Program-made: the position numbers and the translations under genes
NCBI GenBank assembly: GCA_902812395.1
Contig: CADDZO010000006.1
Span: 1 to 46,721, forward strand
DNA length: 46,721 bases
Reading direction: 5' to 3'
Source: a bacterium
GTDB lineage: Bacteria; Chloroflexota; Dormibacteria; Dormibacterales; Dormibacteraceae
Notes under the pieces: model-generated
What the model saw: the letters and a program-made list of their open reading frames with translations, nothing else
Database searches by the model: none
What the model was told of the DNA's origin: nothing
In this document: one piece after another, positions 4,514 through 36,993 of the stretch
Layout: each line of letters begins with the position of its first letter
Position numbering within the stretch: the first letter of the stretch is position 1

Positions 4514-4683
4514 CCGTCGGGCCCATCTCCAATCCCAGCCTGGCCAGCATCAAGGCCTGCGTCCAGCCCACCCCCAGTCCGGATCTCTTTTTCTTCACCG
4601 ATCCCAAGGGCGTCGCCCATTACGCCCGCACCTACGCCCAGTTCCAGCAGCAAGAGCAGCAATACGGCGTAGGTGCCGGGTGA
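4514..4683 (+). pseudogene. 3' stump of mltG created by the duplication
   Basis: Encodes the last 55 codons of mltG (ending in the same GVGAG tail) without start, membrane segment or catalytic Glu. The upstream sequence in this frame is unrelated. It is a by-product of the tandem duplication and overlaps the start of the second aroE by 4 bp, as in copy 1. Confidence 0.9.
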
Positions 4684-5459: not shown

Positions 5460-6097
5460 GCGTTCCGCCGGTGATGCTGCTGCTGGCATGGGCCCCGGTC
5501 GGGGTCGGAGCCGGCGTAGCGGTCCGCTGGGGGTCGGTGTGGCTGGCCCGGCGGCAGGGCCTTCCGGCCGGGCAGCGAGCGTGGCAGCGGCTGGGGCCGC
5601 CGGTAGCCTGCGGGCTGCTCTTCGCCGGCCTGGCCTGGAGGCTCGGGCCCGTGCCACCGCTGTTGATCCGGAGCCTGTGGGCAGCGGTGCTGGTTCAGGT
5701 TGCCTTCTTCGATGCCGAGCATCGTCTCGTGCTGGATTGCGTGCTGGCCCCGGCCGCAGCGTTGGCGCTGGCGCTGAGCCCCTTCACCCCTGGCGTGGGG
5801 CTGCTGGCTGCGGTTCTGGCCGGAGCCGGCTCGGGGATCGCCTTCTTGCTGCTGGCAATAGCGGGCTCGCTGGTCTTCAAGGCCGAGGCGATGGGGCTGG
5901 GCGATGTCAAGCTGGCCGCGTTCCTGGGCCTGATCCTGGGCCGGCTGGCGGTGAGTGGGATCTTGATCGGGGTAATCCTGGCCGGCGCGGTCGGGGTTTC
6001 GCTGGTCGTGCTTCACCTGCGTTCGATGCGGGACTCCATCCCCTACGGCCCCTTCCTCACCGCTGGGGCCCTGGCCTGCCTGCTCGCCTTCACCTGA
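5456..6097 (+). CDS. A24-family prepilin peptidase, copy 2
   Basis: Identical to the copy at 3796-4437 (213 residues, Asp86 and Asp150 present), with the same GTG start inside the aroE stop. This is the copy that carries the native downstream flank (6175 onward). The same caution about the duplication applies. Confidence 0.72.
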   Translation: MSVPPVMLLLAWAPVGVGAGVAVRWGSVWLARRQGLPAGQRAWQRLGPPVACGLLFAGLAWRLGPVPPLLIRSLWAAVLVQVAFFDAEHRLVLDCVLAPAAALALALSPFTPGVGLLAAVLAGAGSGIAFLLLAIAGSLVFKAEAMGLGDVKLAAFLGLILGRLAVSGILIGVILAGAVGVSLVVLHLRSMRDSIPYGPFLTAGALACLLAFT

Positions 6098-6174
6098 GCC
6101 GAACACGGAGTGGGCCTCGATGCGCTCGTCCTTCCGGTTTGGGCCGGGGTGCTCACGTGACGCGAGCCCTCTTC

Positions 6175-15765: not shown

Positions 15766-16851
15766 CTAGCAGATGCGGGGCAGCGGGTCGCCGATGAGCA
15801 TGTCCACCACCCGGGAGCCGCCGAAAGCCGTGTGCATGAAGACCATCCCCGCCGGCTCGGCTCGGATCTCGCCGATGTCGGCCGCCTGAGCACCGAGCGG
15901 GTGCGCGCGCATCGCCTCCACGACATCCCTGGCGCACTCGGATGCGACCACTGCCACGATCTTGCCTTCATTGGCCATGTAGAGCGGATCGATACCCAGG
16001 ATCTCAGCCGCCCCCCTGACCTCATCCCGGACCGGCAGCGCCTCCTCCCGGATCGCCACTGCCAGCTCCGCCTCCATGGCCAGCTCGTTGAGGACGGTGG
16101 CCACGCCGCCCCGGGTTGCGTCTCGCATCAGGTGCACGTCGCCCGCCTCCATGACCGCGGAGCAGAGCTCGTGCAAGGGCGCGGTGTCCGAGGCCAGATC
16201 CGATTCCAGATCGAGGTCGCCGCGTGCCAGCATGATGGCGGTGCCATGGTCCCCGATCGTGCCCGAGACCAGGACCCGGTCCCCGGGCCGGACCCGCTCC
16301 AGCCCCAGCCGTGCTGGCTCCCGGACGAGCCCCACGCCGGTCGTGTTCACGAACAGAAGGTCACCTTTGCCGCGCGGCACCACCTTGGTGTCGCCGGCGA
16401 GCAAGCGCACCCCTGCCCGCCGCGCCGCCTCGGCCATCGAGGCCACCACCCGGCGCAGCACGTCGGTTTGCAGGCCCTCCTCAAGGATGAAGCCGGCGGT
16501 GATGCAGAGCGGCTCGGCCCCGGTCACGGCCAGATCGTTGACGGTTCCGTTGACGGCCAGCTCACCGATGTCGCCGCCCGGGAAGAAGAGCGGAGAGACG
16601 ACGTAGCTGTCGGTGGTCACCGCCAGGGTGGCCCCGTTCGCCGTGAGGAGGGCCGCGTCCCCTTCCGGGTTGCCGAAGGACGGCCGGAATAAGGCTTCGA
16701 TCAGGGTCCGGGTCGCCTTGCCGCCGGCGCCGTGGGCCATGTTGATGGCCTCGTCGCGGAGCCGCGGTGCCCGCCGTCGGATCGCCTCGATCCGCTCCAG
16801 CACCTCCTGCTCCGACCACTTGCCGATCCGGGAAGAGTCACTGGCGGGCAT
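15766..16851 (-). CDS. hypE: Hydrogenase maturation protein HypE
   Basis: 361 residues, AIR-synthase-like fold. HypE dehydrates the thiocarboxamide made by HypF to the thiocyanate that becomes the cyanide ligands of the active-site iron. The C-terminus ends DPLPRIC with the acceptor Cys as last residue, as required. MAHGAGGKATRTLI and LAVTTDSYVVSPLFFPGGDIG are the family's ATP-binding and dimer motifs. Start set at the ATG at 16851, 14 bp inside hypD; an earlier in-frame start would only add residues unlike HypE. It is the last gene of the operon. Confidence 0.95.
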   Translation of the reverse strand: MPASDSSRIGKWSEQEVLERIEAIRRRAPRLRDEAINMAHGAGGKATRTLIEALFRPSFGNPEGDAALLTANGATLAVTTDSYVVSPLFFPGGDIGELAVNGTVNDLAVTGAEPLCITAGFILEEGLQTDVLRRVVASMAEAARRAGVRLLAGDTKVVPRGKGDLLFVNTTGVGLVREPARLGLERVRPGDRVLVSGTIGDHGTAIMLARGDLDLESDLASDTAPLHELCSAVMEAGDVHLMRDATRGGVATVLNELAMEAELAVAIREEALPVRDEVRGAAEILGIDPLYMANEGKIVAVVASECARDVVEAMRAHPLGAQAADIGEIRAEPAGMVFMHTAFGGSRVVDMLIGDPLPRIC

Positions 16852-17986
16852 TGGGGGCCTCCGGCTGCAGGACGGTGAGCCGGGAGTCTGCTCGGCTGAA
16901 GCGGCCAAAGTTGTAGTAGGCGGCGCAGGCGCCCTCTGAGGAGACCATGCAGGTCCCGATCGGTGTCTCTGGCGTGCAGGCGGTGCCGAAGACCTTGCAC
17001 TCCCAGGGCTTCAGCACTCCCTTCAGGACCTCGCCGCACTGGCAGGCCTTGGGGTCGGCGACCCGGACCCCCGGGACTTCGAAGCGAAGCTCGGCGTCGT
17101 ACCGGGCGTACTCCTCGCGAATAGCCAGGGCCGAAAGCGAGATGAAGCCCAGTCCTCGCCATTCGAAGTGGGGGCGGAGCTTGAAGGCACGCCGGATCAC
17201 CTCCAGCGCCCGTGGGTTGCCGTCGGCGGCAACGATGCGGGTGTACTGGTTCTCGACCTCACAGCGGCCCTCGAGGACCTGGCGGATGACCATGTGCACG
17301 CCCTGGAGGATGTCGAGCGGCTCGAAGCCGGTCACCACCACCGGCTTGTGGTAGCGCTGGGCAACGAAGTCGTAGGGCCGGATGCCGATCACGGCGCTCA
17401 CGTGGCCGGGGCCCAAGAAGCCGTCCAGGCGCAGGTCGGGTGAGTCCAGGATCGCCTTGATCGGGGGAATGATCATCACGTGGTTGCAGAAGATCGAGAA
17501 GTTGGGCACCTGCTCCTCAGCTGCCCGAAGCAGCGTCAGCGCCGTCGAGGGGGCAGTGGTCTCGAAGCCGATGGCGTAGAAGACCACCTCGCGCTCCGGG
17601 TTCTGATAGGCGAGACGGAGCGCGTCCAAGGGCGAGTAGACCATGCGTACGTCCGCTCCTTGGGCCTTGGCGTCGAGGAGCGAGCCGCGACTTCCTGGGA
17701 CCCGCATCATGTCGCCGAAGCAGGTGAAGATGACCCCCGGGGTGCTGGCTACGGCGATGCCGTCGTCGACGCGGCCCATGGGGATCACGCAGACCGGGCA
17801 GCCCGGGCCGTGTACGAGCTCGACGTTGGGCGGCAGCAAGTCCTCAATCCCGTACTTGTAGATGGTGTGGGTGTGGCCGCCGCAGACCTCCATGATCTTC
17901 CAGTGGCGGTCGCCTGCCTCCTCTGCGATCCGCCGCGCCAGCGCGGCCGCCACCGCCTGGTCCCGGAACTCGTCCACGAATTTCAT
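16838..17986 (-). CDS. hypD: Hydrogenase maturation protein HypD
   Basis: 382 residues. HypD with HypC is the [4Fe-4S] scaffold on which Fe(CN)2CO is built. MEVCGGHTHTIYKYGI holds the Cys and His that bind iron, and HGPGCPVCVIP the CPVC thiol pair. GFETTAPSTA and the C-terminal Cys cluster (CQCGEVLKG, ECKVFG, CTPETPIGTC) match the family. The start MKFVDEFRD overlaps the upstream stop by 4 bp (ATGA). It lies directly after the SIS-HypC-SIS gene, which suggests those proteins work together. Confidence 0.96.
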   Translation of the reverse strand: MKFVDEFRDQAVAAALARRIAEEAGDRHWKIMEVCGGHTHTIYKYGIEDLLPPNVELVHGPGCPVCVIPMGRVDDGIAVASTPGVIFTCFGDMMRVPGSRGSLLDAKAQGADVRMVYSPLDALRLAYQNPEREVVFYAIGFETTAPSTALTLLRAAEEQVPNFSIFCNHVMIIPPIKAILDSPDLRLDGFLGPGHVSAVIGIRPYDFVAQRYHKPVVVTGFEPLDILQGVHMVIRQVLEGRCEVENQYTRIVAADGNPRALEVIRRAFKLRPHFEWRGLGFISLSALAIREEYARYDAELRFEVPGVRVADPKACQCGEVLKGVLKPWECKVFGTACTPETPIGTCMVSSEGACAAYYNFGRFSRADSRLTVLQPEAPNARQ

Positions 17987-19287
17987 GCCGTCTCCTCCAG
18001 CCCCCGGACGAGGGCGTGGTACATGGTCGCCTGGGCCTCCTGGATTCGGGGGATGTAGGTGCTGTCGGTTACCAGCAGGTGGTCGATGAAGGGAGCGTCC
18101 CGCCAGGCCCCCCCTCCGTAGCCGACCAGCGCGATCGTGATCAGACCCTGCCGCTTCGCTTGCTCGAAGGCCCGGGTCACGTTCTGGGAGCGCCCGCTGG
18201 TCGAGATCCCGACCGCGACGTCGCCGGGCTGCCCGAGCGCGATCACCTGCCGGGCGAACACCTCCTCGAAGCCGATGTCGTTGCCGACCGCGGTCAGGAC
18301 CGCCGGCTCCCCGCTCAGGTCCAGGGCGGGAACCCCGACTGCCTGCAGGTCGCTGGTCAGGTCGGCAGCGTCGGTGGCACTGCCGCCATTGCCGAAGGTG
18401 AGGACCGTGCCCCCGGCTCGGACCCGCTCGGCCAGCGTCGCCAGCGCCGTCGCCAGCGCCGCCTGGTCGACCGCTCGCCGGAGCTGGGCTACCTCCTCCC
18501 ACTTGATCTGAACCGAACGGGCCACGTCGGCCAGCACCGCCGGGACGTCGACCGTCTGGTTGGAGAGAAACGGGTAGAACTCCTGCGAGAAGCTCTCGAT
18601 CGGCTTCACCCGCTCCAATGCCACCCCGGCATGGACCATCACCAGGTCACCCGGCTGGACCGGCTGGACCAGGCTCAGATCGCACCGCTCCTCGCCCTGG
18701 GCGGTTCGCACCAGCCCCTCCCCCTCGGCCCGTACCACGGCCGCGGGCACGGCCACGTCCCCGCAGGTGATGCAGACCTCGTCTGTGCAACCCTCCTGGA
18801 GCAACCCCTCGTGCTCGAAGAAGACGTGGACCAGCTCCCAGAGCTCGTGGTAGGCGGTCTCCTGGATCTCCTGAGCCACCAGCGGGTCGCCACAGCCAAC
18901 CGCGAAGGCGTGCTCGGCATCGCAGGAACCACCGTCCCCGAAGGCGACCTGGAGGCCCGAGGGCAGCTCCCCCAGGTCGCCGCTGGTCAGCCCCATACGG
19001 ATGTCGTCCGGACCCGCCAGCAGGTCCAGCAGCCGAGGCTCACGGACCGACACCGCAGGTAGCGCTCGCTTCCCAACCAGCACCGGATGGATGAACTCAA
19101 CCGCGTTGTGCTGCGCGTCGCTGAAGGCGGCTCCAGGCTGGGCGTAGATGACCAGCCGGCCGCCTCGATGGAAGCGTCGGGCCATGCCCCAGCAGGCGGT
19201 GGCCAGCTCCCGGGCCCGCTCCCGGAAGAAGGTGTCCCCGGCCTGGAGGACGGCCTGGTAGTGGCCGAGGGCTGCGCTCACTGCCAT
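17983..19287 (-). CDS. SIS-HypC-SIS fusion protein
   Basis: 434 residues in three parts. Residues 1-165 resemble a GmhA-type SIS (phosphosugar isomerase) domain: SDAQHNAVEFIHPVLVGKRALPA is typical, but the sugar-phosphate loop GNGGS is replaced by AQPGAAF. Residues 168-230 are a HypC domain beginning CITCGDVAVPAAVV with Cys172/Cys175. Residues 260-434 are a second SIS domain with an intact loop FGNGGSATDAADL (298-310). HypC carries the iron precursor with HypD; phosphoheptose isomerase-like genes are known companions of group 1h hydrogenases. A fusion of both with two SIS halves suggests a maturation scaffold, an inference. ATG 19287; a GTG two codons later is an alternative. Confidence 0.85.
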   Translation of the reverse strand: MAVSAALGHYQAVLQAGDTFFRERARELATACWGMARRFHRGGRLVIYAQPGAAFSDAQHNAVEFIHPVLVGKRALPAVSVREPRLLDLLAGPDDIRMGLTSGDLGELPSGLQVAFGDGGSCDAEHAFAVGCGDPLVAQEIQETAYHELWELVHVFFEHEGLLQEGCTDEVCITCGDVAVPAAVVRAEGEGLVRTAQGEERCDLSLVQPVQPGDLVMVHAGVALERVKPIESFSQEFYPFLSNQTVDVPAVLADVARSVQIKWEEVAQLRRAVDQAALATALATLAERVRAGGTVLTFGNGGSATDAADLTSDLQAVGVPALDLSGEPAVLTAVGNDIGFEEVFARQVIALGQPGDVAVGISTSGRSQNVTRAFEQAKRQGLITIALVGYGGGAWRDAPFIDHLLVTDSTYIPRIQEAQATMYHALVRGLEETA

Positions 19288-21407
19288 GCCGCCACCCACG
19301 CCTGGCCAAGCGAGATCCCACCGTCGTTGGCGGGGACGCGCTCGTTCGCGTAGGGCTCGAGCCCGGCCTCCCGCAGCCCGTCGACCGTGGCCTCCAGCAG
19401 GCGCCGGTTCTGGAAGCATCCGCCGGAGAGGGCGACCGTGCGCAGCCCGGTGCGCTGGCAGGCGCGGACGATGGCCCGGGCCAGCGAGGCGTGGAAGGTA
19501 GCGGCCAGCCGGCCCGCAGGCTCGCCTCGGCGCTGGCGGGCTGCCATCTCGGAGAAGAGTCGGCGGTTCTCCTCCAGCTCGACCTTGATGACGTCTCCCT
19601 CATCCTCGCAGGCTGCCTCCAGCAGCGCTGCCGCCTCCCCCTCGTAGGTGGAGACCTGGGCTACCCCGCACAGGCTCGCGACCGCGTCGAAGAGCCGGCC
19701 CAGGGAAGAGCTGAGTGGGCTTCGCCCGGAGCCGGCCAGCTGGCGCACCAGGTGCCAGCGCCGAGGGTCGACCCCCTCCGGAGGCGACTCGAGCCCGTAG
19801 GCGGCGGCCATCCGCCAGCCCTCGCGGGCGCAGACGTCGCCCCCGGGAAGGGGCACCGGCTCCAGGTGGGCCACACGCCGGAAGCCCCTCTCCTCCAGCA
19901 CCAACACCTCGCCCCCCCAAATGGTTCCGTCCGGACCCAGGCCGACGCCGTCCAGGGCCACCCCGACCAGCGGCGGCCGAAGCGAGTGCTCGGCGGCCAC
20001 GCTGGCCACGTGCGCGTGATGGTGCTGGACCCGGACCGGCTCCCCCAGCCGTTCTGCGATCCGAGTCGAGGTGTAGTCGGGGTGGAGGTCGCAGGCGATC
20101 CGCTCGGGGCGGACCGAGAAGAGGTGCAGGTAGCGCTCCAGCTGCTCCTCGAAGGCCTGCACCGTGAGCAGGTCGTCGAGGTCGCCCACGTGGGGGCCGA
20201 CGAAGGCACGCCCGTCCCGGGCGACCGTGAAGGCCGACTTTAGGTGGGCCCCGGTCGCGACCAGAGGCGGAGAGGCGCAGAAGGGCAGCGGCTCGGGGGC
20301 GAGCCCGCGGGCACGCCGAATCACGCGCAGCGCACCGGCCGCCCAGCGCACGACCGAGTCGTCGTAGCGGGCCGCGATCGGGCGGTCGTGGCCGAGGAAC
20401 AGGTCGGCGATCCCGCCCAGCCGCTGCTGGGCCTCGGCGTCCTCGCGGCAGATGGGCTCCTCGGAGAGGTTGCCACTGGTCATCACCAGCGGGCCGCCGA
20501 AGTCCCGTACCAGCAGGTGGTGGAGGGGCGTGTAGGGGAGCATGACCCCCAGCTCCCTCAACCCCGGTGCGATCGAGGGGGCGAGCCCGCCCCGGTACCG
20601 GAGGAGCACGATCGGGGCCGCAGGGGAGCGCAGGGCCTGCCATTCCTCGGCAGCAACGCTGCAGTACCGCTCGGGCTCCAGCATCATCACCGCCAGCGGC
20701 TTGCGCGGGCGGTGCTTGCGGCGCCGGAGGCGGGCCACCGCCTCCTCGTTACCGGCGTCGCAGGCGAGCTGGTAGCCGCCCAGCCCCTTGACCGCAACGA
20801 TGCGGCCTCGGCGCAGTGCTGTCACAGCCTCCTCGATCAGCATGGACAGGTGAGGGCCGCAGTCAGGGCAGGCGTTGGGTTGGGCGTGGAAGCGACGGTC
20901 TTGCGGGTCTTCGTACTCCCTCCGGCAGCGCTCGCACATGGTGAACCGCCGCATAGTGGTCAGCGGTCGATCGTAGGGGAGCGACTCGATGACGGTGAAC
21001 CGGGGCCCGCAGTTGGTGCAGTTGGTGAACGGGTAGCGGTAGCGGTGGTTCCTGGGGTCCAGGATCTCGGCCAGGCAGTCGGAGCAGGTGGCGGCGTCCG
21101 GCGAAACCGACTGGAAGTCACCGGGACGGGGCCGGCTGTCGAGGATGACGAACGTGGTCGTGCCAGTGGGGGGCAGCCTGCGAGATCGGACCTCCTCGAT
21201 GCGGGCCAGTGGTGGCGGGCGCTCCTCGAGGTCGGCGAGGAAGCGGTCCAGGGCCTCCTCCTCGCCTTCGACCTCGATCTCCACCGGTCCGGTGGAGTTG
21301 CGCACCCATCCGCCCAGGCCGTGCCGACGGGCCAGCCGGTACACATAGGGCCGGAACCCGACCCCCTGGACTGTGCCGCGGACCGTGATCCCAAGCCGTC
21401 CCCGCAT
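19278..21407 (-). CDS. hypF: Carbamoyltransferase HypF
   Basis: 709 residues, full length. In order: acylphosphatase domain (1-90, with GTVQGVGFRPYVYRLA), two zinc fingers (CSDCLAE, CTNCGPRF, CERCRREY, CPDCGP), YrdC-like domain (LGGYQLACDA, MTSGNLSEEP), and Kae1-like domain (QHHHAHVASVAAEH, ALDGVGLGPDGTIWGGE). HypF makes carbamoyl-AMP from carbamoyl phosphate and transfers the group to the HypE C-terminal Cys. ATG 21407 begins MRGRLGITV; the longer frame would add residues without homology. It overlaps the SIS-HypC-SIS gene by 10 bp. Confidence 0.96.
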   Translation of the reverse strand: MRGRLGITVRGTVQGVGFRPYVYRLARRHGLGGWVRNSTGPVEIEVEGEEEALDRFLADLEERPPPLARIEEVRSRRLPPTGTTTFVILDSRPRPGDFQSVSPDAATCSDCLAEILDPRNHRYRYPFTNCTNCGPRFTVIESLPYDRPLTTMRRFTMCERCRREYEDPQDRRFHAQPNACPDCGPHLSMLIEEAVTALRRGRIVAVKGLGGYQLACDAGNEEAVARLRRRKHRPRKPLAVMMLEPERYCSVAAEEWQALRSPAAPIVLLRYRGGLAPSIAPGLRELGVMLPYTPLHHLLVRDFGGPLVMTSGNLSEEPICREDAEAQQRLGGIADLFLGHDRPIAARYDDSVVRWAAGALRVIRRARGLAPEPLPFCASPPLVATGAHLKSAFTVARDGRAFVGPHVGDLDDLLTVQAFEEQLERYLHLFSVRPERIACDLHPDYTSTRIAERLGEPVRVQHHHAHVASVAAEHSLRPPLVGVALDGVGLGPDGTIWGGEVLVLEERGFRRVAHLEPVPLPGGDVCAREGWRMAAAYGLESPPEGVDPRRWHLVRQLAGSGRSPLSSSLGRLFDAVASLCGVAQVSTYEGEAAALLEAACEDEGDVIKVELEENRRLFSEMAARQRRGEPAGRLAATFHASLARAIVRACQRTGLRTVALSGGCFQNRRLLEATVDGLREAGLEPYANERVPANDGGISLGQAWVAAWQ

Positions 21408-21408
21408 C

Positions 21409-21624
21409 TCAGGCGGCGCGCATCCCCCTGGCCACCTTGGCTGCCATCTCCACCAGCTCGCCACTCCGCCCGGCAGCCACTCTGGCCGCGTTCAGGGCCA
21501 TGTCCATGGCAATCCGGGTCTCGTCACGGCGACGCAGACCCTGGATCAGGTCCAGCAGCTGCCGACGGCGGGTGGACGACCCCAGGACGTATCCGGCCGT
21601 GAAGATCGCAAGCTTCATCCACAC
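21409..21624 (-). CDS. Small YtxH-like membrane protein of the hyp operon
   Basis: 71 residues: MWMKLAIFTAGYVLGSSTRR at the start is a short hydrophobic helix followed by basic residues, as in YtxH-like proteins (GYVLG then charged), and the rest is an amphipathic helix. A GGAGG lies 8 bp before the GTG at 21624; ATG 21618 is the alternative. It ends 1 bp before hypF. Function unknown. Its place inside the hydrogenase operon suggests a link to membrane attachment or assembly. Confidence 0.65.
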   Translation of the reverse strand: MWMKLAIFTAGYVLGSSTRRRQLLDLIQGLRRRDETRIAMDMALNAARVAAGRSGELVEMAAKVARGMRAA

Positions 21625-21636
21625 CTGATCTGCCTC

Positions 21637-21768
21637 CTACATCTCCCGGAGCCGGAAGTAGCGCTGAATGTCCTTGGCGTTGAGCAGAGCGAAGATCGCT
21701 GCCCCGGCCAGCCCCAGCAGGAGCAGGGAGCCCAGCCTGATGCCGCCGCCACCGACCTGGATCTTCAT
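21637..21768 (-). CDS. 43-residue single-span membrane protein
   Basis: A very small gene. The protein starts MKIQVGGGGIRLGSLLLLGL, continues with one hydrophobic helix to about residue 30, and ends DIQRYFRLREM. The C-terminal pattern (hydrophobic helix, then I..RYlr.R.M) is like small actinobacterial proteins of the DUF6893 type, from memory. An AAGGAG motif sits 7 bp before the ATG, a strong ribosome site. It lies 12 bp after hypC and 12 bp before the next gene, so it is part of the operon. Function unknown. Confidence 0.65.
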   Translation of the reverse strand: MKIQVGGGGIRLGSLLLLGLAGAAIFALLNAKDIQRYFRLREM

Positions 21769-21780
21769 CTCACCTCTCCT

Positions 21781-22056
21781 TCAGTTGATGTTGGACGTCC
21801 TGATCTGGTCGACCTCGTCCCGGTAGGCCTGGCCGAGCCCCTCCAGCATCCGCTGCTGTTCTTTCGCCTCCGCCTCGTCGATCTTGGTCAGGGCGAAGCC
21901 GACGTGAATCAGGACGTAGTCGCCGGGCTGGGGCCGGTCCTCACCGTCCAGCAGCCCGATGTTGACGTTGCGGCGGACACCGACGACCTCGACCCTGGCA
22001 ATCTGCCGCCGCTCGTCCACGATCTCCAGGACCTTGCCGGGTATGGCCAGGCACAT
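21781..22056 (-). CDS. hypC: Hydrogenase maturation chaperone HypC
   Basis: 91 residues. MCLAIPGKVLEI has the essential Cys2 after Met, and GDYVLIHVGFAL is the second family motif with its His. HypC shuttles the Fe(CN)2CO unit between HypD and the large-subunit precursor. The C-terminal 25 residues are a charged helix longer than in short HypCs. This is the stand-alone copy; a second HypC domain is fused inside the SIS protein downstream. It is 3 bp after hypA. Confidence 0.94.
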   Translation of the reverse strand: MCLAIPGKVLEIVDERRQIARVEVVGVRRNVNIGLLDGEDRPQPGDYVLIHVGFALTKIDEAEAKEQQRMLEGLGQAYRDEVDQIRTSNIN

Positions 22057-22059
22057 GGT

Positions 22060-22440
22060 TCAACGCTCCTTTCCGGTCACGGTTGACGAGGGATTGCGGC
22101 GCACCTCGCCGCCAGCCAGTTCCACCTCCGCCACCTCGATTCGGTCCCCGTCTCTGACCTCGACGTCGCTCGAGCCGCAGTCAGGGCAGAGGACCAGGTC
22201 TTCAGCCTGGCCCTCCCGGCCACAGGAGCGGCAGCGGAGCTGGAGGGGTACCTCCACCATCTCCAGGTGGGACCCCGCGGCCACGGTCTGCTCGGAGACC
22301 AGTCGCCAGGCCATCTCCATGCTCTCCGGGGCAACCCGCTGGAGGCGGCCGACTCGGACCCGCACCCGTTCCACCCGCTGGCCGCGCGCCGCCTGCAGAG
22401 CCACCGCGAGCACGCCCTCGCTCAGTCCGAGCTCATGCAC
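22060..22440 (-). CDS. hypA: Nickel chaperone HypA
   Basis: 126 residues. The GTG start gives MHELGLS, which places the nickel-binding His at position 2 as in all HypAs; an earlier start would spoil this. The zinc site is CRSC (70-73) and CPDC (85-88). HypA delivers Ni2+ to the large subunit together with HypB, but no hypB is in this operon. It overlaps the protease gene by 8 bp. Confidence 0.94.
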   Translation of the reverse strand: MHELGLSEGVLAVALQAARGQRVERVRVRVGRLQRVAPESMEMAWRLVSEQTVAAGSHLEMVEVPLQLRCRSCGREGQAEDLVLCPDCGSSDVEVRDGDRIEVAEVELAGGEVRRNPSSTVTGKER

Positions 22441-22927
22441 CGACCCCCTCCTTCTTCTCATGGGCCAACCGTTCCAGCACATGGCAGACCTCGGCCACTG
22501 CGAGCTCCACCGCGCCCGCCACCCGGGGGCTCAGCCCCATCTCCCCCTCTTCCCCCCCGAGCCGTGCCGGTTGGCAACCGAGCATGAAGAGGCGGGGCGG
22601 CCGCCCGCCCAGCTGCCGCACCAGACGCAGGACCTGGACCGGGTCCATGGCGTGGCCGTCGGCGTGGGCCGGGCCCTCCAGGGCCTCCAGGTCCGGCTCC
22701 AACCAGCGCAGGGTGCCGGGCTCCTCACCCAGGGGGACGGCGTCGATCAGGACCGCGGCATCCGCCTCCTCCATCAGCGCGTAGGCCAGGTCGTAGCCCC
22801 TGATGCCGAAGTCACAGAGTTCCACCCCCTCGGGGAGCTGGCGTTGCCGGAGCCGGCTCAGGACCTCGACCCCGAAGCCGTCGTCGCCCTGGAAGACATT
22901 GCCGATCCCGCAGACCAGCACCCTCAT
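22433..22927 (-). CDS. Hydrogenase maturation endopeptidase (HybD/HycI family)
   Basis: 164 residues. The N-terminus VCGIGNVFQGDDGFGVEVL carries the metal-binding acid (Asp16 where HybD has Glu16). Asp62 is in LIDAVPLG and His92 in DGHAMD, completing the nickel-recognition triad. The enzyme cuts the C-terminal tail off the large subunit after nickel insertion. The large subunit here does have a 20-residue tail after its last His. ATG 22927; overlaps the upstream gene by 4 bp. Confidence 0.92.
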   Translation of the reverse strand: MRVLVCGIGNVFQGDDGFGVEVLSRLRQRQLPEGVELCDFGIRGYDLAYALMEEADAAVLIDAVPLGEEPGTLRWLEPDLEALEGPAHADGHAMDPVQVLRLVRQLGGRPPRLFMLGCQPARLGGEEGEMGLSPRVAGAVELAVAEVCHVLERLAHEKKEGVGA

Positions 22928-23229
22928 CGCAGTAGCTCCACCTCCGACAGCCGGAAGAAGAATCGGTGCCCGGGCTGGCGTTCCAACCCCAGGTCGCGAC
23001 CGGGGTCGTCCTCCAGGACTACGGCCAGGTGGACCTGGTCGTCGTAGTCACGCTCGATGGCCTCCACCACCCCGACCCGGCCGGCCAGCTCCAGGTCCAG
23101 GATGTCGGCACCGCCTCGGGGCCGGAGCCGCACCCGGTCTCCGCAGGAGAGTTGTCCCTGGGGAGTGTCGATGCACTCCAGTGGCGTCGTCTGGCCCCAC
23201 GGGTCCAGGCGCGGCTCGAGGCCGCTCAC
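22924..23229 (-). CDS. Conserved hydrogenase-operon protein, 101 residues
   Basis: Starts at a GTG within the upstream stop (GTGA). LSCGDRVRLRPRGGADILDL is followed by VGVVEAIERDYDDQVHLAVVL and GHRFFFRLSEVELL, a small all-beta pattern. I recall close relatives beside group 1h hydrogenase genes in actinobacteria, but none with a known role. Both ends overlap the neighbours by 4 bp, so it is made together with them. It may act in assembly or regulation of the enzyme. Confidence 0.75.
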   Translation of the reverse strand: MSGLEPRLDPWGQTTPLECIDTPQGQLSCGDRVRLRPRGGADILDLELAGRVGVVEAIERDYDDQVHLAVVLEDDPGRDLGLERQPGHRFFFRLSEVELLR

Positions 23230-24143
23230 GGCTCCGCCTCCGGGGTGCGCAGGGTGCCGTGAAGGCGCAGCCACTGCGCGGGGGTGAGGTGCTCGGTCCG
23301 CTCCAGGATCCCTCGAGCGTGTGGATCGCCACCCCGGAGCTCGGCCTTCTCCTGCTCGCTCAAGGTCAGTACCCGCAGACTCAGGAGCTCATCGATCTCG
23401 GAGGAGTCGAAGAGGTCACCCGGGCTCTCGGGGGCGAGGCGGGGGTGGTCCTCGACGATGATGGGCGAGCAGAGCAGGGTGTCGTCCCGTCCCGCCTCGC
23501 CGGCAAGCACCGGCCAGCAACCGATGCTGTGGCAGGCAGCCGCGGCCTGGGCCAGGCTGGGGGGCGGGTCGGCCAGCGAGCAGAACCGTCCTGGCGACGC
23601 TCGGAGCACGGCGTGGGTCGAGCAAAGCGAGCTCGGCATCACTCGCTCCCGGGGGGCGTCGAGCTTTGCGAACGGGGTCAGGTTCTGAACCTCGACCGCG
23701 AGCGCGATGGCGCCGGCAAGCGGCTGTGCCGAGATCAGTGCGCGACCCTCCAGGGCCTCCCAGCGGCGGATCGCGTCCCCCTCTGCCGTCCTCTGCGGGG
23801 TCACCCGGAGCGGCAGTTCCGCCGGGATCCGGAGCAGGTCGGAGAGTGCCAGGCTCGCCTCCAAACGACGTTCGCTTGCCTCCTCCCACTCCGTGCTGCC
23901 GTGTCGACAGCGGCAGAGATGGAGGAACCGGACGCTAACCTCGAGGCGGCAGTCAGGCCCCGGCACCAGGAGGCACTCGGCCCGCCAGCGCCACCCCTCG
24001 CAGCCGCCGGCTTCGCTCCAGGCCCTTGGTGCGACTGCGCCGAAGGTCCAGCGGACCCGGTTCTTGGTCGCTCCCGGGGTGTATGGGTAGAGCAAATACC
24101 CCTCGTAGAGCAGGGCCCGGCAGAGCGCGTCCACGTCACTCAT
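23226..24143 (-). CDS. Conserved hydrogenase-operon protein, 305 residues
   Basis: The N-terminus has ALLYEGYLLYPYTPGATKN and RVRWTFGAVAP, a conserved block in group 1h operons. Then come alternating strands, a segment CSTHAVLRASPGRFCSLADPP, and IVEDHPRLAPESPGDLFDSSEIDELLSLR near the C-terminus (written in parts). It is soluble, with no membrane segment or known catalytic motif. ATG overlaps the DUF6084 stop by 4 bp. Function unknown; co-occurrence suggests a maturation or quality-control role, an inference. Confidence 0.8.
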   Translation of the reverse strand: MSDVDALCRALLYEGYLLYPYTPGATKNRVRWTFGAVAPRAWSEAGGCEGWRWRAECLLVPGPDCRLEVSVRFLHLCRCRHGSTEWEEASERRLEASLALSDLLRIPAELPLRVTPQRTAEGDAIRRWEALEGRALISAQPLAGAIALAVEVQNLTPFAKLDAPRERVMPSSLCSTHAVLRASPGRFCSLADPPPSLAQAAAACHSIGCWPVLAGEAGRDDTLLCSPIIVEDHPRLAPESPGDLFDSSEIDELLSLRVLTLSEQEKAELRGGDPHARGILERTEHLTPAQWLRLHGTLRTPEAEP

Positions 24144-24790
24144 CTCGGATAAGCCTCTTGGGCCGCCTCCAGCAGCGCTTCCAGGACCCCGTCCCAGTCC
24201 GGGATGGTGCGCTTGACCTTGTAGGCGGCGAGGCGGTCGAAGACGTCCTTGCGGAGACAGAGCCAGGCGCTGTTCGGGTAGTAGCGGTCAATGACCTCGC
24301 GCCAGGCCGCGACCGGAAGCCGGTACGAGGCCTCCCGGCTCCAGGGGATGCGTTCCATCTGGAGGCGGCCGGTGGCGTCGGCATAGAAGACGGAGCCGGA
24401 GAAGAGGAGGAGGAGGGGCACCTCGCCCTGGCCGAGGGCGTCGAGGTAGCGGGTGGCCTGGACGTTGAAGTCGAAGGTGCAGGGGAGGTGGAGGAAGACA
24501 TCGGTGCTGTCGGTGAACGGTGGAACCCCGGCCTGGAGGTGGCACCAGAGCAGGCTGCGCATGGTCCGCGACCACAGCGCCGGCTCCCCGAAGAGATCGC
24601 GCAGCCGCTCCTGCTCGGCGACGTCGTAGCGTCGCCGGGCGGCCTCGATCCGGACCTGGCACTCGAGCGAAACGCCCTGGATCGGCTCAGGGCCGGCGTT
24701 GGTGACCCGCAGCCGAACCGCCAGGGTGGGGACCACGCAGAATGGCACCGCCTCTGCCCCCAACACCGCGAAGTCGAGGTCAGGCACCAC
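24140..24790 (-). CDS. DUF6084 family protein
   Basis: 216 residues. MVPDLDFAVLGAEAVPFCVVPTL at the start (in parts), then TFDFNVQATRYLDAL and YPNSAWLCLRKDVFDRLAAYK are the marks of the family I know as DUF6084. The predicted fold is beta-rich with no membrane segment. The family is found almost only with group 1h hydrogenase genes. Start GTG 24790 (GTG 24787 is equally possible); overlaps the DUF5947 gene by about 11 bp. Role unknown. Confidence 0.8.
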   Translation of the reverse strand: MVPDLDFAVLGAEAVPFCVVPTLAVRLRVTNAGPEPIQGVSLECQVRIEAARRRYDVAEQERLRDLFGEPALWSRTMRSLLWCHLQAGVPPFTDSTDVFLHLPCTFDFNVQATRYLDALGQGEVPLLLLFSGSVFYADATGRLQMERIPWSREASYRLPVAAWREVIDRYYPNSAWLCLRKDVFDRLAAYKVKRTIPDWDGVLEALLEAAQEAYPR

Positions 24791-25397
24791 CCGCCTCCGC
24801 GCTCACCGACTCCGTGCGCAGGTGCTCGAAGAAATCGGCGATCGACCTCCAGACCTCGGTTCCCCCGGCGAGGCCTCGCCAGCCCCTCCGGATGAGACCC
24901 ACTAGCTCGTAGCAGCGGTCAATCGGGACCAGGTAGTGCTCGCGCGCACGTCCCACCCGGTTGACCAGCAAGGCTTCCACCTCAGGTTCCAGGGTGCGCA
25001 GCACCGGGTTGGTGGACTCCAGCTCGGCCCAGGCGTCGAGCTCGAGCAGGGACTCGGTGGGGCCGGCCGGGCTCGGATAGACGGCTGCTACCCGTTCACC
25101 GCTGCGGAAGAAGAAGGCCATGTTGACCGGGATCCCGAGGCCGTCCCAGAGCTCGTCCGGGAGCAGGAAGCCGTCCAGGTACCGGACCCGCTCGGGAACC
25201 CGTCGATAGCGCTGCTCAGCCCGTCCGGAGAAGAGGATGGAGCAGGGGTCGCAGACGCAGAGCAGCCGCCGGGCGCCGACCTCGGCCAGGTGGCGGTGGC
25301 GGGGCGCGAGCGGAGTGGCGCAGAGATCGCAGATCTCCTGGGGTCGGCGCTGCTGCGCCAGCCGGCTCAGGGTGGCGAGGGAGGCTCCCACGCTCAC
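24780..25397 (-). CDS. DUF5947 family protein with zinc knuckle
   Basis: 205 residues. CDLCATPLAPRHRHL followed by LLCVCDPCSILF makes a four-Cys metal site with nearby His residues. The middle (LPDELWDGLGIPVNMAFFF) and the C-terminal LVGLIRRGWRGL are family features. DUF5947 proteins are companions of group 1h hydrogenases with unproven function. The GTG at 25397 overlaps the upstream stop (GTGA). Confidence 0.8.
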   Translation of the reverse strand: MSVGASLATLSRLAQQRRPQEICDLCATPLAPRHRHLAEVGARRLLCVCDPCSILFSGRAEQRYRRVPERVRYLDGFLLPDELWDGLGIPVNMAFFFRSGERVAAVYPSPAGPTESLLELDAWAELESTNPVLRTLEPEVEALLVNRVGRAREHYLVPIDRCYELVGLIRRGWRGLAGGTEVWRSIADFFEHLRTESVSAEAGGA

Positions 25398-26227
25398 GCC
25401 CCCAGCGGCACCGCGACCCGACACTTGCCGTCTTCCACCAGCAACGGAACCGGCTCCAGGTGGCCGTCACCGTCGAGGCCGGTCCCTGCTTGGTGGACGT
25501 CGAACCGGTGGCCGCAACTGGGGCAGGTCAGGGTAGTACCCGCCAGGTACGCTCCCTGGAGCGAGCCACCACAGGCTGCGCACCGGTCCCGGTAGGCATA
25601 GAGCGCCTCCGCCGTCCGGCAGAGCAGGAGCCGGTCCCCTGCCACCTGGAGAACGTGGACGGTGCCCGGCGCCGGCTCGGCGCCACCGTCCAGCGTCTGC
25701 CAGCCGGCGCGGGTTCCGCCGATGGTGGCCAGGGGCACGAAGCCGGCCGGGATCTCTCGGTCGGCCACCTCGATCCCGCTCACGTCGGGGGCGGCCTCCA
25801 GGATCGCCTGCTCGACCGCGTTGCGCAGGGTCTGGGCGGAGGACGGGCAGCCGCGGCAATGCCCTTGCAGCCGGATCCTGACCCTGCTGCCGGCCAGGGC
25901 CACCAGCTCCACGCCGCCGCCATGGCTCTGCAGATAGGGCCGGACTCGCTCCAGCGCCCCCCGCACCCGCTCCTCCAGCGAGCGCGGGTGCAGGCCGTGG
26001 AGGAGCAGCAAGCCGCTTACCACCCGATCCTTGGCCAGCTCCTCCAGCATCGCTCGGCCGGCACCGGCCTCAATCAGCTCACAGAGCCGCTGCAACGCCT
26101 CCCCATGCAGGGCCAGCAGCTCCTGCACTGCCTCCGAGGCGACCTGGCGGGCCCCCTCGGGGAGGCCCTCCAGGTCTCGGACCAGCGCCTCGGCGCGCTG
26201 GGCGTGTTGCTCGAACCGGACTGCCAT
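25394..26227 (-). CDS. NifU-domain/Rieske-like fusion protein
   Basis: 277 residues. Residues 1-80 are helical. Residues about 85-155 are a NifU C-terminal domain with the cluster-scaffold pair CRGC (124-127). Residues about 165-277 follow the Rieske fold (LYAYRDRCAACGGSL, TCPSCGHRFDV), but the two His ligands are absent: the pairs are Cys216/Cys219 and Cys235/Cys238. A four-Cys site of rubredoxin or zinc type is expected instead of a Rieske cluster. Such a protein sits next to the structural genes in group 1h operons and probably acts in cluster delivery or electron transfer. It starts 9 bp after hhyL. Confidence 0.88.
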   Translation of the reverse strand: MAVRFEQHAQRAEALVRDLEGLPEGARQVASEAVQELLALHGEALQRLCELIEAGAGRAMLEELAKDRVVSGLLLLHGLHPRSLEERVRGALERVRPYLQSHGGGVELVALAGSRVRIRLQGHCRGCPSSAQTLRNAVEQAILEAAPDVSGIEVADREIPAGFVPLATIGGTRAGWQTLDGGAEPAPGTVHVLQVAGDRLLLCRTAEALYAYRDRCAACGGSLQGAYLAGTTLTCPSCGHRFDVHQAGTGLDGDGHLEPVPLLVEDGKCRVAVPLGA

Positions 26228-26236
26228 CCCCCGTGG

Positions 26237-28018
26237 CTACTGGGCCCCGAACATGGGCGCATGGGTCAGGTCCAGGGTCCGGCCCGGACCCAGGTACATG
26301 TGCACGCCACAGGGCAGACAGGGGTCGAAGCTGCGGACCGCTCGCATGATGTCGATCCCCTTGAAGTTGTCGGGACCGTTTTCCTCGAAGATGGGAGTGT
26401 TCTGGACCGAGTCCTCATAGGGCCCCGGCGTCCCGTAGACGTCCCGGACGCTGCCGTTCCAAGGCGTCGGCGGATAGGGGTGGTAGTTGGCGATCTTCTT
26501 GTCGCGGATCACCAGGTGGTGGGAAAGAACGCCCCGCACCGCCTCGTGGAAGCCACAGCCGATCGCCTCCTCTGGCACCTCGAACGGAGTGAAGGTCTGG
26601 GTTCGGCCAGCATGCAGCTCCTTCAGCGCCTGCTCGACGAAGTAGTAGGCGCAGGCGCAGGCATAGGCCTGGAAGTAGCTCCGGGCGCGGTCTCTCTCGA
26701 TCGCGTTGCTCCACTGCGGGACCTTCCACTCGAACTCGACCTCGCCTTTGGATGCCGTCTTGGGAAGGTAGATCTTGACGCTCTGTCCGGTTGCCTTCAC
26801 ATAGCCGATGTCCACCAGCCCCGCCAACGCGGTCGCCCACAGGCGCGCCAGCGCACCGCCCCCGGTGTCGAGAGCGAGATGCTCTCCCTGGTGCAGCCAG
26901 CGCGGCGACATCGTCCAGGAGTACTTGCCCCCCGGCTGCATCTGCCGCTTCTGAGGATGCGGAATCGTGGTCTGGTTCCAGGGGTGGCGCCGGTCGACCG
27001 GGTTGCCGAGAGGGTCCCGCTCGACGAACATCTCCTCCCGGTCCCAGTCGTCGTAGTACGAGCTGCCGAGCAGGATGCGGATGTTGAGGTTGATGTCGAC
27101 CAGGCTGGTGGTGACCAGCTGGCCATCGACGACCACGCCCGGAGTCACGTACATCTTGCGGCCCCACTCGGCCATGTTCCGGTACGTGTAGTCACAGGCC
27201 TGGGGATCGTTGAAGGAGCCCCAGCAGCCCAGCAACGGCCGTCGCTGGCCGACCTTCTCGTAGCCTGGGAGCGCCTCGTAGAAGAAGTTGAAGATGTCGT
27301 CGTGCAGCGGAATGCACTTCTTCATGAACTCGGCGTAGCGGGCGAGCCGGACCAGGTAATCGGTGAAGAGCTGGACCGTTGGCACCGTCCCCACACCGCC
27401 CGGATACAGGGTGGAGGGATGCACGTGCCGCCCCTCCATCAGGCAGAACATCTCCCGGGTGTAGCGGCTGACGTGCAGCGTCTCCCGGTAGAAGTCGCCC
27501 TCGAAGGGGTTGAGCGCGTGCATGATGTCGGCGATCGTCCGGTAGCCGTGGTCGGCGGCATGCGGTGCCTCCGTCCTGGTCGCCCTCTCCCACACCCCGG
27601 GGTTGGTCTCGCGGACCATCTTCTCGCAGAAGTCGACCATCAGAAGGTTGTCCTGGAAGATGTTGTGGTCGAACATGTACTCGGCCGCCTCTCCCAGGTT
27701 GATGATCCACTCCGCGATCGCCGGCGGCCGGATGCCGTAGGCCATGTTCTGCGTATAGACGGAGCAGGTGGCGTGGTTGTCGCCGCAGATACCGCAGATC
27801 CGGCTGGTGATGAAGTGCGCGTCCCGAGGGTCTTTGCCGCGCATGAAGATCGAGTAGCCGCGGAAGATGGAGGAGGTGCTGTAGCATTCCGCGACCTCAC
27901 GGTTGGCGAAGTCGATCTTGGTGTAGATGCCGAGGCTGCCCACGATCCGGGTGATCGGGTCCCACGACATCTCGACCAGTGTTCGCTTCTCGGTCGGTCT
28001 CTCCTGAACGGTTGCCAT
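26237..28018 (-). CDS. hhyL: [NiFe] hydrogenase large subunit, group 1h type
   Basis: 593 residues. The first active-site pair is RICGICGDNHATC (Cys75, Cys78, His82). The second is DPCLPCGVH (Cys567, Cys570, His573), followed by a 20-residue tail MYLGPGRTLDLTHAPMFGAQ that the maturation protease must remove. The L1 form with GDNHATCSVYTQNMAYG is that of actinobacterial-type group 1h (formerly group 5) enzymes. These oxidise H2 at atmospheric levels and feed electrons to the quinone pool. It lies 10 bp after the small subunit gene. The assignment to 1h rests on motifs and operon content, not on a tree. Confidence 0.95.
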   Translation of the reverse strand: MATVQERPTEKRTLVEMSWDPITRIVGSLGIYTKIDFANREVAECYSTSSIFRGYSIFMRGKDPRDAHFITSRICGICGDNHATCSVYTQNMAYGIRPPAIAEWIINLGEAAEYMFDHNIFQDNLLMVDFCEKMVRETNPGVWERATRTEAPHAADHGYRTIADIMHALNPFEGDFYRETLHVSRYTREMFCLMEGRHVHPSTLYPGGVGTVPTVQLFTDYLVRLARYAEFMKKCIPLHDDIFNFFYEALPGYEKVGQRRPLLGCWGSFNDPQACDYTYRNMAEWGRKMYVTPGVVVDGQLVTTSLVDINLNIRILLGSSYYDDWDREEMFVERDPLGNPVDRRHPWNQTTIPHPQKRQMQPGGKYSWTMSPRWLHQGEHLALDTGGGALARLWATALAGLVDIGYVKATGQSVKIYLPKTASKGEVEFEWKVPQWSNAIERDRARSYFQAYACACAYYFVEQALKELHAGRTQTFTPFEVPEEAIGCGFHEAVRGVLSHHLVIRDKKIANYHPYPPTPWNGSVRDVYGTPGPYEDSVQNTPIFEENGPDNFKGIDIMRAVRSFDPCLPCGVHMYLGPGRTLDLTHAPMFGAQ

Positions 28019-31000: not shown

Positions 31001-31431
31001 AGCGCCGGCAGCCGGGCGGCCTGCCCAGACTCCCCGTCGCCATGCGACGAACTCGCGTCTCATCCAGACCGTCTCCGTCCTCTCCACAATGGTTTGTTCC
31101 CGTCTCCACGAGGTCCGCGGTGCCGGGACAGCGCTCGCGTGTGGAGGGTTCCCGGGACGAAGTCCGACGTCCGCGCGATCCTTCGGCGCCGGGGGACGGG
31201 TCGCCTGGCAACCCCGCCAGGACCGTTCCCAGCAGCAACACGGCCATCTCGCGCGCCACGCGCATGTCCAGGTCTCCAAGTGACATGGTTACCAGGTGGA
31301 CCGGGAGCCGAGGCCAGACCCATGGGAGCAGGGCCACGACCGCCGTCGCGTCCACATCATGTTAGAGACCACTCTTGATCGACCAGGTGGCGCCGCCAAG
31401 GGAGCGCCGCTGGGCGAGGATGGAGGATGCA
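31001..31431. other. 430-bp stretch without a convincing gene
   Basis: No frame gives a recognisable protein. A minus-strand frame starting near 31355 begins with a hydrophobic stretch (VVALLPWVWPRLPVHLV) but becomes low-complexity Arg/Pro/Gly, so it is not called. The right end holds the ribosome site GGAGG for the OsmC gene. Confidence 0.3.
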
Positions 31432-31899
31432 ATGGACCAGCCCACCTACGTCTCACGGGTTCGGATCGTCCGCGAGCGCGGACCCATCCGCCGGGCCGAG
31501 CTGCCGGTGGAGCCCACCCCGGTGGTCTTCGGCACGCACGGAGCCGTCCGTGAGCACTACGGAACGCCTTCCGGCGCCTACCCCGAGCACGCCACCACCC
31601 TCGACTACGTCGTCGCGGCCGCTGCCGGCTGATTGACTGGCACTTTTGCTGGCGCGCTGGAGGCGCGCGGGATCGACGCCGGCGACGGCCGCCTGGTGGC
31701 TGAGGCGGAGGGGGAGGTGTTCCTCGAGGACCGGGTCCTGGTGATCAAGCGCATCCGGGTGCGCTACCGACTGTCGGGCTGTCCCGAGGACCGGCGGGAG
31801 GCTGCGGAGCGGGCCCACGCGTTCCACGCCAGCCGCTGCCCGGTGGCGCGGAGCATCGGCGGCTCGATCGAGATCACGACTGAGCTGGCCTTCGCTTGA
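31432..31899 (+). CDS. OsmC-family peroxiredoxin-like protein, candidate selenoprotein
   Basis: 155 residues if the TGA at 31630-31632 is read as selenocysteine (residue 67). Upstream residues EHATTLDYVVAAAAG and downstream LTGTFAGALEARGI are the exact surroundings of the peroxidatic Cys in OsmC/YhfA proteins (usual form AAxGGCLxGTL). The second, resolving Cys is kept in HASRCPVARS. Homology continues in the same frame on both sides with no other damage. A 6-bp hairpin with a G-containing loop begins 20 nt after the TGA. OsmC-like selenoproteins are known in bacteria. ATG 31432 has GGAGG 5 bp before it. The alternative is a nonsense mutation; the neighbourhood is rich in pseudogenes. Confidence 0.6.
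31652..31668 (+). promoter_or_regulatory. Bacterial SECIS-like hairpin
   Basis: GCGCGC-TGGAG-GCGCGC: a 6-bp GC stem with a five-base loop that has G at its second position. The loop starts 25 nt after the TGA. Bacterial SECIS elements lie right after the UGA, with the loop about 16-37 nt away and a G among its first bases, so position and loop agree. A short lower pairing (TGGC 31638-31641 with GCCG) is possible. Confidence 0.4.
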
Positions 31900-32190
31900 C
31901 CAAAAATCTCGGCGGCGCAAGCCTCGCGCTTCAGCGCTGCGTTGCTCCACGCGGGCTTGGCGCGTGAGCGCTGGCCAGGGTGCGGAACCGCCCTTGCGGG
32001 CGGCGTGGAGCCAAGCTTCCCAACCTGCGAGTGGAAGGGCGTGTCCCCCTTCCTCCTTCAGGGCCGCGCCCTGGAGGAGAAGCGGGTCGCCCGCAGAACA
32101 GGGAACAGCCCGAGCCGAAAGCCCGGATGTTGGAGCGCATGCGCAAGCGTGTGGCGAGAGCCGAGGAGACGCGGCGGTGGTTCTCCCCAG

Positions 32191-34751: not shown

Positions 34752-35292
34752 ATCTCAGGGGCGACTCCCGGTGCCCGTGTGATCTGGCCGGGCCGACGGC
34801 CACCGGCAACGGGTAGGGGTCGGCTGATCCCTGGTGGACCAGCCACCGGTCAGTGCCGTTCCGGGGAGTACGGCCGTGTGTGCCCGCGTGTCCTCCGCCG
34901 ACCAGAGGTCTGACCTGGACCGGCAGGTCGCCCGGGTGAGCGCATGGGCGGCAGCCGAGGGACTTCCGGTGGGCCGCGTGGTGACGGAAGTCGGCTCCGC
35001 ACTGAACGGCGAGCGCCGCAAGTTCTTGGCCCTCCCGCGCGACAATTCGGCGACCACGATCGTGGGGGAGCACCGCGACCGGTTCGCCCGCTTGGGCGCG
35101 GAGTAGGTCGAGGCTGTGCTGGCGGCGCAGGGCCGCCGGTTGCTCGTTGTGGACCCTGCCGAGGTGGACGACGATCTGGTCCGGGACGTGACCGAGATCC
35201 CAACAAGCCTCTGCGCTCGCCTCTCCGGACGGCGAGCGGCTGCCAACCGAGCGGCCAAGGCCATCGCAGCGGCCACCGGGGAGGATCCGTGA
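34752..35292 (+). pseudogene. IS607-type TnpA with nonsense codon (copy 3)
   Basis: The DNA-binding domain is missing or frame-shifted. From about 34834 the frame reads VCARVSSADQRSDLDRQVARV, keeping the catalytic Ser but with Cys for Tyr. It continues VVTEVGSALNGERRKFLALPR and EHRDRFARLGAE, where a TAG (35104-35106) replaces the Tyr codon of the usual GAEYVEA. Homology goes on in frame (VEAVLAAQGRRLLVVDPAEVDDDLVRDVTEI in parts) to 35292. Best read as a pseudogene. Confidence 0.8.
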
Positions 35293-35300
35293 AGCTGCAG

Positions 35301-35345
35301 CAGGCCGGGTCCCCACGAAGTCCGCTTCGTGGGGTGCCCCAGGCC
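35301..35345. repeat. Palindromic mini-insertion 1 in tnpB
   Basis: A 33-bp insert (35307-35339) with core CCCCACGAAG-TCCG-CTTCGTGGGG, flanked by the direct repeat CAGGCC (35301-35306 and 35340-35345). Net gain 39 bp, so 13 codons in frame. It interrupts the family start QQA|YRYALDPTP. Confidence 0.7.
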
Positions 35346-36533
35346 TACCGGTACGCGCTCGATCCCACCCCGAGCCAAGAGCGGAGGCTCCGCTCCCATG
35401 TCGGAGCGGCGCGCTACGCCTGGAACTGGGGTCTGGCCCGGGTGAAGGCGCGGTACGCAGCCGAGAAGAAGTGGTACTCAGCCGAGGATCTCCGTCGGCT
35501 CTGGAACGCGGAGAAGAAGACCGATCCCGATCTGGCCTGGTGGAGCGAGAACTCCAAGTGCGTCTACCAGGAGGCCTTCAGGAACCTGGACCGGCGCTGG
35601 GGGACTTCTCGAAGTCCAAGACGGGGCTGCGGAAGGGGCGACGGCTGGGCTTCCCTCGGTCCAAGAAGAAGGGCCGGTGCCGGGACTCCTGCCGCTTCAG
35701 CACCGGGGTGATGCGCTGCTCGGGCTCGACGGTCACGCTGCCCAGGCTGGGGACCATTCACACCCACGAGTCCACCGAGGCGTTGGCGGGCAAGATCGCG
35801 GAGGGAAAGGCCAGGATCCTCTCCGCCAGCGTGTCGCGGACCGCCCAGCGGTGGTTCGTGTCCTTCACCGTGGAGGTGGAGCGTGAGGTCCCGGATCATC
35901 ATCGGCGGCCCCGGACGGCGGTGGGCATCGATCTCGGGATCTCTTCCGTGATCACGGCGGTGGACCATCGGGGTCGGGTGATCCGGTTCCCTGGTCCCAA
36001 GCCGCTGAAGGCTGCGCTGGGGCGCCTCTGCCGAGCCGCGCGCGCCCATTCCCGCAAAAAGACCGGCTCCGCCAACCGCAGGAAGAGCGCGCGGCGGCTG
36101 GCGCGCATCCATGCCCGGATCGCCAACTGCCGTCTCGATGCCTTGCACAAGGCCACGACCTGGCTGGCTGCTCGATACGAGACGGTGGTGGTCGAGGACC
36201 TGAACGTGGCCGGGATGCTCCGCAACCGGAGGCTGGCCCGAAGCCTGGCCGACCAGTCCTTCGGGACCGTGCGGCACCAGCTCGGCTCCAAGACCGTCTG
36301 GCGCGGCGGCCGGTTGCTGGTGGCCGAGCGGTTCTTCCCCAGTTCCAAGACGTGCTCTGGCTGCGGGACAGTGAAAGCCAAGGCTGGCCGAGCGCACCTT
36401 CCGCTGCGAAGGCTGCGGCCTGGTCATCGATCGGGACGTGAACGCTGCGAAGAACCTTCTCGAGCTCGCCGTCAGTGGCAGAGGGGCCTGTGGAGCCGAG
36501 GTAAGACCCAGCCGTGCTGGGCACACGGCGGTG

Positions 36534-36583
36534 AAGCAGGAGGGGACCCCACGAAGCAGGCTTCGTGGGGACCCCAAGCAGGA
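36534..36583. repeat. Palindromic mini-insertion 2 in tnpB
   Basis: A 34-bp insert (36542-36575) with core CCCCACGAAG-CAGG-CTTCGTGGGG, outer arms GGGGA and ACCCC, flanked by the direct repeat AAGCAGGA (36534-36541 and 36576-36583). Net gain 42 bp, 14 codons in frame. It interrupts the family tail AVKQE|PGTAQAGK. Confidence 0.7.
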
Positions 36584-36617
36584 ACCCGGCACCGCGCAAG
36601 CGGGTAAGACCGGGACC

Positions 36618-36637
36618 GCCACCGGGCAACCGGTGGC
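36618..36637. ncRNA. Hairpin at tnpB 3' end, possible guide-RNA part
   Basis: GCCACCG-GGCAAC-CGGTGGC is a perfect 7-bp stem in the last tnpB codons. Guide (omega) RNAs of TnpB systems cover the 3' end of tnpB and continue past it, so this hairpin may belong to one. From 36666 to 36993 there is no gene. Confidence 0.3.
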
Positions 36638-36993
36638 TGCGGGTCGGCTGGCTCATGCTCACTGACCCGCAACGGCCACGGGGTCTGCGGGCCAGCGTCG
36701 AGCTCCACCTTTGCCCGAGCGCGACCAGTGCCTTCGGATCACCGACCCGAGGAGCCATCGGCCGACCGTAATCCCGGCCGGCGGCCGGGCGTTTGTGCCG
36801 GAACGGAGACGCTGGCGACGTGGTGGCGCCGGCATTCCCGGCCTGGCCTCGCTCGTTGGCGGGAAGGGCCGGTTACAAGGCGACCACCGTCCCGGACCGG
36901 TGCGGCGGCCGCCCTCGGCTCGGGAGTGAGAGGCACGGGTGAATGGTGGGCAACCGCACCGTGCAGGTCGCCGGAGCTGCCTACACTGTGGCC

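Follow-up and report, generated by a model that had tools for sequence, protein, structure and literature searches.

An OsmC-fold gene with a conserved in-frame TGA in a Dormibacteraceae genome: a probable second type of OsmC-like selenoprotein

Introduction

The OsmC-like selenoprotein was reported in 2005 from three Sargasso Sea sequences with the motif UxxT (PMC1088965); the GOS study of 2008 listed five sequences of the same motif (PMC2398784), and the UxxT type is also found in a review (PMC9312934). In a 2026 inventory of 119 families, in which different Sec motifs define separate subfamilies, there is a single OsmC entry and it is UxxT (PMC13188914), while the main texts of the deep-Sep paper (PMC12013277) and of a 2016 survey (PMC5029168) contain no OsmC. 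The same inventory describes the bacterial SECIS (bSECIS) as an upper stem of 4-16 bp with a loop of 3-9 nt, a G among the first two nucleotides of the loop and 16-37 nt between UGA and loop (PMC13188914).

Here we describe an OsmC-fold gene with an in-frame TGA in a Dormibacteraceae-type metagenome-assembled genome (MAG; Candidatus Dormiibacterota). The window, meaning the whole stretch of DNA analysed, is 46,721 nucleotides long. An initial annotation, made from the letters alone, had proposed that selenocysteine (Sec) is inserted at this TGA, with the counter-argument that the region is full of decayed genes.

Results

The gene occupies positions 31432-31899 of the forward strand and encodes 155 amino acids plus a stop if the TGA at 31630-31632 is read through. 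Translation bears out the initial annotation in that a single OsmC-like frame is broken by this TGA only, which lies between AAAAG and LTGTF, and that the SRCPV motif is intact; the strong ribosome site claimed ahead of the ATG is also present, as a Shine-Dalgarno-like GGAGGA at 31422-31427, 4 nt upstream of the start codon. The terminator of the gene is likewise TGA. With the internal TGA taken as Sec, the protein reaches 50.5 bits with the PF02566 model (cut-off 27.5), a family matched at E <= 0.001 by all 45 aligned members, and the orthologues are equal in length to the window protein. None of the NCBIfam models, Ohr and OsmC included, exceeds its curated cut-off; the only one with any signal is the SACOL1771-family peroxiredoxin (TIGR03563), far below threshold at 22.6 vs 166.15 bits.

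A profile search of PDB sequences returned no true relative, and we therefore turned to fold comparison. The AlphaFold model of the window protein (pLDDT 96.9) finds its best PDB matches among OsmC and Ohr proteins, with E about 1e-8 and 11-22% identity. In this model residue 67, the UGA codon, lies inside a long helix (56-78) and Cys136 adjoins helix 137-142. Alignment with the genome's own Cys-containing paralogues places U67 at the first redox Cys, the peroxidatic position, and C136 at the second, so that the predicted structure and the alignments together give an OsmC/Ohr fold with two redox residues. Cys136 (31837-31839, within CPV), the putative resolving Cys, is present in 81/81 sequences, namely the window and the best 80 of 189 loci from the scan described below; Cys117 (31780-31782) is invariant in 25 Dormibacteria sequences, but not across the wider family.

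The gene was matched in 27 of 61 genomes, comprising the window's own and 60 of the same class. A codon-by-codon comparison of 25 Dormibacteria genes (L016-L040) revealed TGA in the same column in 24. The exception, L039 (also numbered L188; genome G021, contig C49), has TGG at the Sec codon, has lost its N-terminal part and carries a base substitution disrupting the hairpin described below, in a genome that keeps SelB and tRNA-Sec. Genome G045 holds a fragmented copy with TAG; these two cases indicate that the gene can be lost.

A genome-wide scan was run with patterns that omit the Sec position; it returned 189 loci, the best 80 of which were kept. In all 80 this codon is TGA and the frame is otherwise free of stops, which with the window gives 81/81. 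By labels that are partly loose (the sister MAG, L051, is labelled Bacillota, yet belongs to the window's genus), they span at least 11 phyla: Candidatus Dormiibacterota, Chloroflexota, Acidobacteriota, Thermodesulfobacteriota, Actinomycetota, Nitrospirota, Poribacteria, KSB1, Gemmatimonadota, Tectomicrobia, Nitrospinota and Myxococcota-type bins. In the Acidobacteriota the gene occurs in 33 of 396 genomes, with one TGA in every site-covering match listed, down to 34% identity, the column being confirmed for ten. Among 120 genomes around the actinomycete Haloechinothrix there are three carriers; each has TGA, and a Cys version was not seen at E <= 1e-8. In a Chloroflexota-like set, which overlaps the Dormibacteria set, 37 of 399 genomes carry the gene, and forms other than TGA are limited to the TGG copy, the fragmented one and L197 (G988:C243:10710-11156), which is a true Cys form. 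This gene, 46% identical and the only Cys form found in the subfamily, has TGC at the Sec codon and lacks the GGA-loop signature, though a different hairpin can form. In the tree the window gene falls within the Dormibacteria clade, and L197 sits, with uncertain placement, on a long branch. Alignment of the homologues, the check that the initial annotation had named for its reading, thus shows TGA at precisely this codon, with TGC in a single case, and intact copies are free of random stops.

The initial annotation had also noted a GC hairpin with a G-containing loop starting 20 nt past the TGA. The hairpin at 31652-31668 of the forward strand (GCGCGCU-GGA-GGCGCGC) has a stem of 7 bp, made up of six G-C pairs and a closing U-G pair, and a GGA loop, and lies 19-20 nt 3' of the TGA. 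With 26 nt from UGA to loop it conforms to the bSECIS rules. The SECIS of E. coli fdhF has a bulged U; the window hairpin is without one. Dinucleotide shuffles of a 54-nt stretch give z = -0.39 for its folding energy, and synonymous-codon shuffles give z = -1.6; since folding energy by itself does not make the hairpin stand out in DNA this rich in GC, we judged it by its conservation. In the 81 loci (window plus best 80 of 189), synonymous choice is nearly fixed at codons +7, +8, +9, +11 and +12 (GGC GCG CTG. GCG CGY), with codon identities of 0.65-0.98 observed vs 0.32-0.38 expected, and is near-random almost everywhere outside the hairpin, with neighbouring codons varying freely. The frozen codons supply the bases of the stem together with the G that opens the loop, and the positions that are free to vary keep the pairing: codon +10 alternates between GAG and GAA (U-G or U-A) and codon +12 between CGC and CGT (G-C or G-U). 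Among 34 diverse sequences standard pairs fill 97.5% of pair cells, vs 19-70% in slid registers, and two distant sequences switch G-C to C-G at one pair. With so little variation in the stem, covariation is modest, and the stronger evidence comes from the synonymous-codon test. The loop is GGA in 93 of 102 distinct TGA sequences; distant members (L198-L203, L161 and L163) have other stem sequences, with a hairpin still possible at about the same place. The SECIS check proposed earlier for the region after the TGA has thus produced a hairpin that follows the rules and is conserved.

The host assembly (3.8 Mb in 381 contigs, 96% complete) contains all four of the genes selA, selB, selC and selD for which a genome search had been suggested. 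The tRNA-Sec scores 68.7 bits, above the Rfam cut-off, and ARAGORN likewise reports a tRNA-SeC with anticodon tca. SelB is full-length (328.6 bits), and its start is overlapped by a SelA-like ORF, recognised by sequence and position and not by a SelA-model score. SelD (L046, C76:7260-8168) scores 343.6 bits and has one in-frame TGA near its N-terminus. Sec-type SelD proteins carry such an in-frame TGA, and L046 is apparently one of them. Elsewhere, a tRNA-Sec scoring about 60 bits or higher occurs in 31 of 36 carrier genomes from other groups; the best scores in the remaining five are 42-51 bits, which incomplete assembly could explain. Within the class, absence of selB is of no use as a negative control, since the Sec machinery occurs in nearly all relatives.

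The decay seen around the gene, raised earlier as a counter-argument, does not extend into it: against the sister MAG (L051), dN/dS is 0.09 before the TGA and 0.08 after it, which indicates strong purifying selection on both sides. The alignment to the sister genome is limited to 31104-31919, and the flanks are not syntenic. Recurrent gene neighbours are specific to particular lineages, with none conserved from phylum to phylum, and many of the listed ORFs are shadow frames.

Other features of the window were recorded. An IS605 OrfB/TnpB-type transposase at 34944-36641 is split over two frames (34944-35711 and 35471-36607), with a Transposase-2 RNA (RF03015) at its 3' end (36575-36641). Positions 2854-6174 are an exact head-to-tail duplication of about 1.66 kb at 100% identity, which runs through a shikimate dehydrogenase gene and fuses ORFs; it reflects either a very recent event or an artefact of assembly. 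The reverse strand at 15766-28018 encodes AIR-synthase-type (HypE-like), HypD and HypF proteins of a [NiFe] hydrogenase cluster, whose Ni-dependent large subunit lies at 26237-28018, also on the reverse strand.

Discussion

We conclude that the gene almost certainly encodes a selenoprotein with Sec at codon 67. Insertion as such is deduced from the conserved TGA, the hairpin and the Sec machinery, all of which support what the initial annotation had suggested. A pseudogene, in which the TGA would be a disabling mutation in a decaying region, would be in keeping with the non-syntenic flanks (only 31104-31919 align with the sister genome), the split transposase nearby and the degraded copies in two relatives, but it is refuted by conservation, as the identical TGA recurs with no other stop in the best 80 of 189 loci over many phyla, dN/dS stays at about 0.08 downstream of it, and synonymous sites are constrained in a SECIS-specific manner; we regard it as extremely improbable and reject it. 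Plain termination at a functional stop, or low-level near-cognate read-through (by Trp, for example) without Sec, is scarcely more credible: the TGG of L039 and the unexceptional RNA folding could be cited in its favour, but that copy is truncated and its hairpin damaged, the genome has a complete Sec machinery, the site aligns with a catalytic Cys and not with Trp, and the hairpin is conserved in its nucleotides, for which reasons this explanation too is rejected. For an alternative code with TGA as a sense codon genome-wide, nothing speaks beyond the in-frame TGA itself, and the TGA terminators of the window gene and of 47 of the 81 loci (the window and the best 80 of 189) in all count against it; its probability is negligible and it was discarded.

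As a selenoprotein, the window protein resembles the described UxxT type in belonging to PF02566/COG1765, in having Sec in place of the conserved Cys and in the bacterial SECIS downstream. It differs in its motif, which is U-L-T-G-T and does not fit UxxT, in an N-terminal extension, in a SECIS that is nearly fixed across phyla and in the near absence of Cys forms among the members found. The earlier reference to known OsmC-like selenoproteins therefore holds for the family and not for the type, the known one being UxxT and the ULTGT of the window protein apparently marking a subfamily of its own. The same genome has a second OsmC gene with an in-frame TGA, at C24:21734-22132 (L135/L136), with the UxxT motif F-U-L-L-T and with TGA also in several relatives of 50-74% identity; it is probably a member of the OsmC-like selenoprotein family already known. 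Further OsmC proteins of this genome, on contigs C29, C16 and C26, are Cys forms. The ULTGT motif of the window gene and the separate UxxT gene in the same genome thus point to a second type of OsmC selenoprotein. By the motif rule of the inventory the window gene appears to represent a separate subfamily, a provisional novelty set apart by the motifs described so far. On balance we favour an undescribed ULTGT subfamily of OsmC proteins, almost obligately Sec-dependent across at least 11 phyla, with a nearly fixed SECIS and one Cys homologue among all those found.

The window protein shares with Ohr and E. coli OsmC the fold, a catalytic position in the central helix and a resolving Cys close to where a later helix begins, and differs from them in having Sec for Cys and only 11-22% identity. 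It is proposed that the UGA at codon 67 is decoded by SelB and Sec-tRNA-Sec, guided by the hairpin downstream, and that Sec67, replacing the peroxidatic Cys in the long central helix, would most likely attack an organic hydroperoxide, if not some other small oxidant, and so form a selenenic acid, which the conserved Cys136 would resolve; the selenenylsulfide could then be reduced by a cellular dithiol. A Sec-based hydroperoxide reductase is thus the function we consider most likely, by analogy with what is known of Ohr chemistry (for instance PMC5962072 and PMC4486171). A true Sec protein with another role, such as thiol/persulfide or selenium handling, is a less likely reading that nevertheless deserves some weight: the low identity to characterised Ohr/OsmC proteins, the lack of any NCBIfam model above cut-off and the absence of conserved neighbours would agree with it, but the fold and the positions of Sec and resolving Cys match the OsmC/Ohr family, and a Cys homologue exists.

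For most bacterial selenoprotein families, Cys counterparts are widespread; this subfamily is found almost only as the Sec form, in many lineages that include the sequenced actinomycete Haloechinothrix halophila YIM 93223. If almost obligate Sec dependence is true, the chemistry of the subfamily would be something that Cys does poorly. Standard gene callers split the gene at the TGA, and the subfamily is probably under-annotated; the near-invariant SECIS sequence can be used to search for further members. With the ULTGT proteins it can be tested directly why selenium would be needed by an enzyme of the OsmC fold.
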